Shown piece by piece: positions 49,980 to 51,209 of a stretch of 64,000 nt of DNA. The stretch is taken from assembly GCA_010015805.1 (NCBI GenBank), contig ML978125.1:1984001-2048000 (forward strand), read 5' to 3'. Origin of the DNA: Rhizodiscina lignyota (Eukaryota > Ascomycota > Dothideomycetes > Aulographales > Rhizodiscinaceae). The notes below the pieces were generated by a model. It was not told where the DNA came from. It saw nothing but the letters and a program-made list of their open reading frames with translations, and ran no database searches. The position numbers and the translations under genes were made by a program. Within the stretch, counting starts at the first letter, position 1; every line of letters begins with the position of its first letter.

Positions 49980-51209
49980 TCAGTGCATGATATCCTCAGT
50001 GCGGACAAGTTCAGGACCAACCTTATTTTCCCACGTCCAGAAAGTCCCGCTGTGTTGAATACCTTTGCTCTGAATTACTTCGATCATTGCTGACACCGAC
50101 TCTTCAGCCGTGATGACACCTTCAACTTCACCGGTAAGGACGTGACCGATGTCTCTCGGGAGGCCGGAAACGTCAATATTAGCCATGTCACTGTCTGCGT
50201 CAGCCTGAGATGTATTCCACATCTGTTACAGATATTTGATGAAAAACTTACGTTGCGACCTCTCCAGGATGCATTGCAAGTATGATTGTATCGTCGTCCT
50301 TCCGCTTCAACTCTGCTGCCATGTGCTACAAGTCAAGATTAGCTTCGCCTCGCTTCAGGCTTCGAGTTCATATTCACACGTACCCGTAACCTAAAAGGAG
50401 ATGAATAAGCTATGTTTGTATGGAATCATGCAGACGGACACTCACATTTGATTCAATGCTGCCTTTGACGCAGCATACGCAGCAAATCTATCACAATTAG
50501 TCTTGCGGCCTCCCTTGTTCAGTGAAAGGAATACTTGCCCATCCTCCATCTCACGGAATTTCTGCGCTGAACCAGAGTCGCTGGACATGAAAACAATTGT
50601 CCCAATGGGGATGTTGGTTTGGAGAAGTTTCTGCGCGGTGATGATCGGTCCAATCGTGTTCGTGTGAAGATGGAACGCGAACTCATCGAATGACCTGTTA
50701 CGCATTCCATTTGTATGAGCACGAGGATGCCAACAAGCTGTATCCGATGGAACTTACACCTCTGTTGCTCTCTACCGTGTGTTAGCTTCGCTAGCTTTCG
50801 CAAAGGCTGGACTTACATTTGGATATCTCAACACGCCAGCATTAATCACAACGTAATCGATAGTAAGATTCGGGACTTGGGCAAGTTCATATACAAAGTT
50901 CTGGTAGAGCATCAGCCATTTGAATCCTTAAGCTGCGTCATACCCTTAGCATGTAGCCCCACTCACCTCAATGCTCTTCTCGCTGAGTACATCACAAATG
51001 AACATCTGGCATCTCCCATGATCCGCCCCTGCTTGCCCCCAGAGTAGTGTCGCATGGTTCGCAAACGGTTGTCGGACTGTCGCAATAATTCTTTCTCCTC
51101 GAGCTATGAGCTGACGCACGAATTCGAGGCCTATTCCCCTACTGGCTCCTATCACTGCCCAAGTCTTGAAATCTTGATCGCTGTATAGAACAGTGGGAAT
51201 TTGATTCAT
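49980..51209 (-). CDS. Short-chain dehydrogenase with eight exons, two of them microexons
   Basis: NAD(P)-dependent short-chain dehydrogenase of the C-factor-like type, 276 residues. Exons: 51209-50967, 50900-50817, 50771-50758 (14 nt), 50694-50539, 50487-50446, 50390-50384 (7 nt), 50325-50252, 50190-49980. Introns are 45-66 nt. Landmarks in order: AVIGASRGIGLEFVRQL (cofactor-binding GxxxGxG), VVINAGVL (NAG), TIVFMSSDSGS (catalytic Ser), FAAYAASKAALNQM (YxxxK). The 14-nt exon encodes RATEV, giving RATEVSFDEFAFHLHTNTIGP; the 7-nt exon GTTACGG supplies the bases for M-L-R in NQMLRHMAAEL; both stretches match what this family normally has. The intron 50488-50538 starts with GC rather than GT (GCAAGT...ATAG). 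The tail ends in VRTEDIMH. Substrate unknown. Confidence 0.9.

Follow-up and report, generated by a model that had tools for sequence, protein, structure and literature searches.

The window, by which we mean the whole 64,000-nucleotide stretch of Rhizodiscina lignyota DNA that was analysed, carries at 51209–49980 on its minus strand a gene that is interrupted by seven introns, two of which enclose a candidate exon of only 7 nt. The host genome comprises 33.4 Mb in 29 contigs; the HET domain (PF06985) has at least 151 matches across it, a large heterokaryon-incompatibility repertoire of the sort expected in filamentous ascomycetes. PF20151, a marker of Agaricomycetes, gave no match, a negative that carries no weight, and a search for 5.8S rRNA found none. 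Spliced as modelled, the eight exons give 276 codons in a single open frame and 831 coding bases. The features are as follows, in window positions:

50967..51209, minus strand: exon 1, 243 nt, with the start codon at 51209 and the cofactor-binding GASRGIG
50817..50900, minus strand: exon 2, 84 nt, containing the NAG motif
50758..50771, minus strand: exon 3, 14 nt (AGAGCAACAGAGGT), encoding RATE and two bases of a Val codon; probable second microexon
50539..50694, minus strand: exon 4, 156 nt, with the catalytic Ser region FMSSDSGS
50488..50538, minus strand: intron 4, 51 nt, of the GC-AG type (GCAAGT...GATAG)
50446..50487, minus strand: exon 5, 42 nt, with the catalytic YAASK, then AALNQ and two bases of a Met codon
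50391..50445, minus strand: intron 5, 55 nt (GTGAGT, CTTAT at –19, TTTTAG)
50384..50390, minus strand: exon 6, the predicted 7-nt microexon GTTACGG, comprising the third base of Met180, Leu181 and Arg182
50326..50383, minus strand: intron 6, 58 nt (GTACGT, CTAAT at –17, TTGTAG)
50378..50383, minus strand: the six extra bases of a 13-nt version of exon 6, with donor GTGAAT from 50377
50252..50325, minus strand: exon 7, 74 nt (HMAAELKRKDDDTIILAMHPGEVA)
49980..50190, minus strand: exon 8, 211 nt, including the stop codon

A CTNAY site occurs in all seven introns, starting 13–25 nt from the 3′ end, and both introns flanking exon 6 have GTRNGT-type donors and TAG acceptors. Intron 4 is open in frame; its retention would add 17 amino acids just before YAASK, giving a possible second isoform. 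Exon 3 has a GTAAGT donor both before and after it, and its stretch aligns without a gap to the top PDB relatives. It is less forced as a probable microexon than exon 6, other models being possible there: the chosen anchors were kept by 41 of 2,334 two-intron models and 5 of 185 one-intron models.

Short-chain dehydrogenases/reductases (SDRs) are recognized by a glycine-rich cofactor motif, NAG, a catalytic serine and YxxxK. The corresponding landmarks in the translation are IGASRGIG, INAG, FMSSDSGS and YAASK, with Ile at the Thr position of the TGxxxGIG motif. The spliced model matches Pfam adh_short (PF00106) over amino acids 16–211 with 94.3 bits (E = 8.9e-27; cut-off 26.6), and among solved structures the closest in sequence is 7xwh, itself a short-chain dehydrogenase/reductase (8.6e-21). 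On these sequence grounds the gene product is a predicted SDR.

Exon 6 lies just after the catalytic YxxxK, where it completes Met180 and encodes Leu181-Arg182. An earlier note, drawn from the letters of this DNA, had proposed the exon, and its positions (exon 5 ending at 50446, intron 5 from 50445 to 50391, the 7 bases at 50390–50384, intron 6 from 50383 to 50326 and exon 7 from 50325) all match the sequence, as do the splice-site letters that it gave. Splicing in GTTACGG yields NQMLRHMAAEL, as had been claimed; also as claimed, a single 120-nt removal that omits it breaks the frame, reading NQITWQQS and then a stop, that is, a frameshift after Gln179 that terminates at the seventh codon after it. 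Retention of intron 5 or intron 6 leads to stops at codons 181 and 197. Reading on from exon 5 without a change of frame, one meets TGA as the first complete codon of intron 5, and in the frame that exon 7 uses, TAG is the codon with which intron 6 ends; consequently neither exon 5 nor exon 7 can be extended.

We enumerated all GT-AG and GC-AG models possible from 50487 to 50252, taking 35 nt as the minimum intron length. Of these, 269 have one intron. Thirty of them are open and in frame, but every one uses a GC donor inside exon 5, so that exon 5 is not left whole and YxxxK or the residues directly after it are lost; all 30 were rejected. Two-intron models number 3,476, of which 335 are open and in frame. 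Exons 5 and 7 both stay whole in just two of these, one containing the 7-nt exon and the other a 13-nt exon whose donor is GTGAAT. The earlier statement that the frame can be kept only with the 7 bases is therefore nearly right and slightly too strong, since the 13-nt exon preserves the frame with the outer sites unchanged. Pfam adh_short scores are 94.3 bits with the 7-nt exon, 87.5 with the 13-nt exon and 75.4 with the exon skipped; one one-intron model was scored, that sparing most of exon 5, and it reached 72.6. Of the GT/GC-AG models enumerated, that with the 7-nt exon comes out best. The exon lies well below the roughly 30 nt up to which an internal coding exon is called a microexon; it is bounded by AG and GT, lies between introns of 55 and 58 nt, and is needed both for the frame and for the length typical of the family.

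That length was taken from relatives. The stretch behind YxxxK forms a helix in SDRs. A protein search of the organism's own genome gave 22 matches, five of them to this gene and 17 elsewhere; 16 of the 17 were aligned as paralogues, and the seventeenth (L021) was examined separately. Between the YxxxK lysine and the MAAE glutamate, no gap interrupts the alignment in any of the 14 own-genome SDR paralogues whose frames cross the stretch; the rows of L015 and L018 end at an intron inside the stretch and stand outside the 14. The nearest paralogue, L005, reads SKTALNQFCKNLSIEL, against SKAALNQMLRHMAAEL in this gene. When L015, L018 and L021 were spliced by eye (SKAALKGLTHSLAAEV, SKWALEALSESLSAEV and TKFALEGIVESLWRET), the length was again equal. 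In the PDB the stretch is gapless in the five alignments shown, which all show variants of a single enzyme and so amount to one observation. The paralogues vary in their letters, also at the two microexon residues (L, R), and keep only the length constant, so that NQMLRHMAAEL, which had been offered as the stretch expected in the family, does not hold as a fixed family motif. The two residues that exon 6 contributes in the model are just what is needed to match the ungapped SDR paralogues at this place.

L015 (about 1957), L018 (reverse complement, about 1981) and L021 (about 2008) share a common intron position, in phase 1 within the codon aligned to Gln179. This position is four bases upstream from that of intron 5, and the intron may be an old SDR intron or a case of intron sliding.

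The chance of finding such an exon was gauged on 20,000 dinucleotide-preserving shuffles of the inner 108 bases. Some exon of at most 20 nt that restores the frame, holds no stop and is bounded by YAG and GT appeared in 20.8% of them; a comparable exon with a GTRNGT donor appeared in 0.52%, and one with a GTRNGT donor and CTNAY in both introns in 0.065%. On both strands of the 64-kb window, YAG-N7-GTRNGT occurs five times and YYYYAG-N7-GTRNGT once. Among 193 pairs of GTRNGT and YAG lying 100–140 nt apart in the window, four contain an internal candidate of frame-restoring length, a count in which stops were not excluded and to which the exon 6 pair presumably contributes. Because similar combinations occur in shuffles and in the window, the splice signals are good but not unique. 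The case for exon 6 is made jointly by the reading frame, the stops on either side and the constant length of the stretch. A point against the exon is its Leu181 codon, TTA, which is rare (in 13 host open reading frames, ORFs, it makes up 24 of 618 Leu codons) and which this SDR gene uses nowhere else.

The 13-nt exon (GTTACGGGTACGT, 50390–50378, donor GTGAAT), used alone or as one of a tandem pair of donors, would add Val-Arg after Arg182. It preserves the frame and both neighbouring exons, but its donor deviates from GTRNGT whereas GTACGT fits, its adh_short score is 6.8 bits worse, and it inserts two residues where all 14 paralogues crossing the stretch align without a gap; we judge it very improbable. 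Excision of all 120 nt (50445–50326), whether by skipping or as a recursive or stwintron-like nested event, with the product or its decay serving as a regulatory off-switch, has outer sites in its favour that are both consensus-like, and comparable nested or skipping events are described for Aspergillus and Onygenales in the part of PMC6616335 drawn on here. Exon 6 moreover starts with GT, so that a junction donor, GTTACG, would be available after a first step; this is a poor match to GTRNGT beside GTACGT. The product, frameshifted and stopped as above, loses the C-terminal third of the protein, while the downstream exons retain an intact, family-like frame, and we consider this reading very improbable. 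A stwintron is recognized by a productive message after full excision, and removal of the 120 nt leads instead to the stop at the seventh codon after Gln179. We also hold it very improbable that we are dealing with a pseudogene in decay, whose microexon would be no more than a modelling accident, the codon adaptation slightly below that of the 13 host ORFs (0.749 against 0.759–0.822) being set against one open 276-codon frame from eight exons with YAASK, NAG and SS intact, the 94.3-bit adh_short match and seven introns with good signals.

We thus regard it as highly probable that this intron-dense SDR gene uses 50390–50384 as a constitutively included coding microexon and that its flanking introns are removed sequentially. 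Computation establishes the letters at the splice sites, the reading frame, how nearly unique the model is and how well it suits the family; in-vivo splicing, sequential removal, constitutive use and the decay of missplicing products are inferred. Introns 5 and 6 would each be recognized as a unit (intron definition) and would be removed one after the other, since space hardly permits both to be handled at once. Under intron definition the seven bases need not themselves be recognized as an exon; the lower limit of exon definition, to which the earlier note had held 7 nt to be close, is therefore probably not the relevant limit, introns of 55–58 nt being likely to be recognized as units. The exon would be retained as the message needs its 7 nt, two codons and the last base of a third, and these must be in the message because the length of the stretch behind YxxxK is invariant among relatives. 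Skipping exon 6, or keeping either intron, would lead to a frameshift or a stop and probably to a message destined for nonsense-mediated decay. Since missplicing gives an early stop, constitutive inclusion is likelier than a regulated switch. Sequential intron removal is also the model favoured for a 1-nt Arabidopsis exon in the text of PMC4674806 consulted here.

How the gene came by so many introns can be considered from its relatives and its codon use. Paralogue frames are 262–360 amino acids long in 13 of the 16 aligned, and 16 of the 19 PF00106 matches scored, out of 387 candidates, lack an internal stop. The intron density of this gene, seven introns in 831 coding bases, is its less expected feature and appears to exceed that of the paralogues found, a contrast that is only suggestive because both searches favour intron-poor genes. 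Own-genome DNA searches for introner-like copies, with queries of 201 and 1,230 bases and very common words skipped, matched this gene only. Its codon adaptation (0.749) is the lowest beside the 13 host ORFs, which are stop-to-stop frames, three pairs of them overlapping, rather than curated genes, and which doubled as the reference set; as a sign of transfer the difference from 0.759–0.822 is too small to decide. Transfer from an intron-rich fungus, or intron gain, are possible origins of the gene. A basidiomycete amylase gene offers a precedent for massive intron gain following horizontal transfer, according to the part of PMC3584928 used here. That this gene is an intron-dense newcomer in an intron-poor ascomycete genome, for example one that came from a basidiomycete with its introns or was invaded by many introns once it had arrived, we hold to be unlikely. 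Were it so, the microexons (7 and 14 nt) and the GC-AG intron would place splicing demands on the host machinery, and skipping would act as a built-in off-switch.

If the gene is spliced as modelled, with exon 6 as a constitutive microexon, automatic annotation would probably lose or truncate the enzyme. The fixed-length stretch could then serve as a ruler, offering a way to find such exons without RNA data. A literature search on SDRs with microexons or on seven-nucleotide exons gave no fungal title among the titles and opening lines of abstracts that it covered.

The comparisons that follow draw on excerpts of the papers cited. In plants, the single-nucleotide exon of Arabidopsis APC11 was tested by reporter constructs (PMC4674806); intron definition and sequential removal fit exon 6 as they do this plant gene. 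In the ascomycete Trichoderma, Xlr2 has a microexon that annotation had missed (PMC11121469). That one is a regulated switch between two isoforms, whereas skipping of exon 6 would destroy the frame, making constitutive use likelier here. Codon-sized microexons are mentioned for Tuber (PMC4986451), and an 8-nt exon is cited as an example in PMC12940212. The P450 genes of Phanerochaete chrysosporium, with a shortest exon of 6 bp (PMC1184071), resemble the present gene in being intron-dense oxidoreductase genes whose short introns enclose very small exons; they differ in belonging to a basidiomycete and to the P450 family, nearly one third of whose genes in that species have microexons. Closest in kind are the CYP621A P450 genes of Fusarium, with a 1-nt exon supported by RNA reads (PMC12940212). 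There too the host is a filamentous ascomycete, the exon is far below the size that gene callers handle and is needed for the frame and the motif length, and an intronless family member serves as the length marker. The Fusarium exon differs in being 1 nt long, in a P450, aligned across Fusarium orthologues and seen in RNA reads, whereas exon 6 is predicted from sequence. Beside these systems exon 6 is a well-supported prediction of a kind already in print for fungi, where microexons are reported down to 1 nt, so that it adds a further candidate and a method but no new principle.
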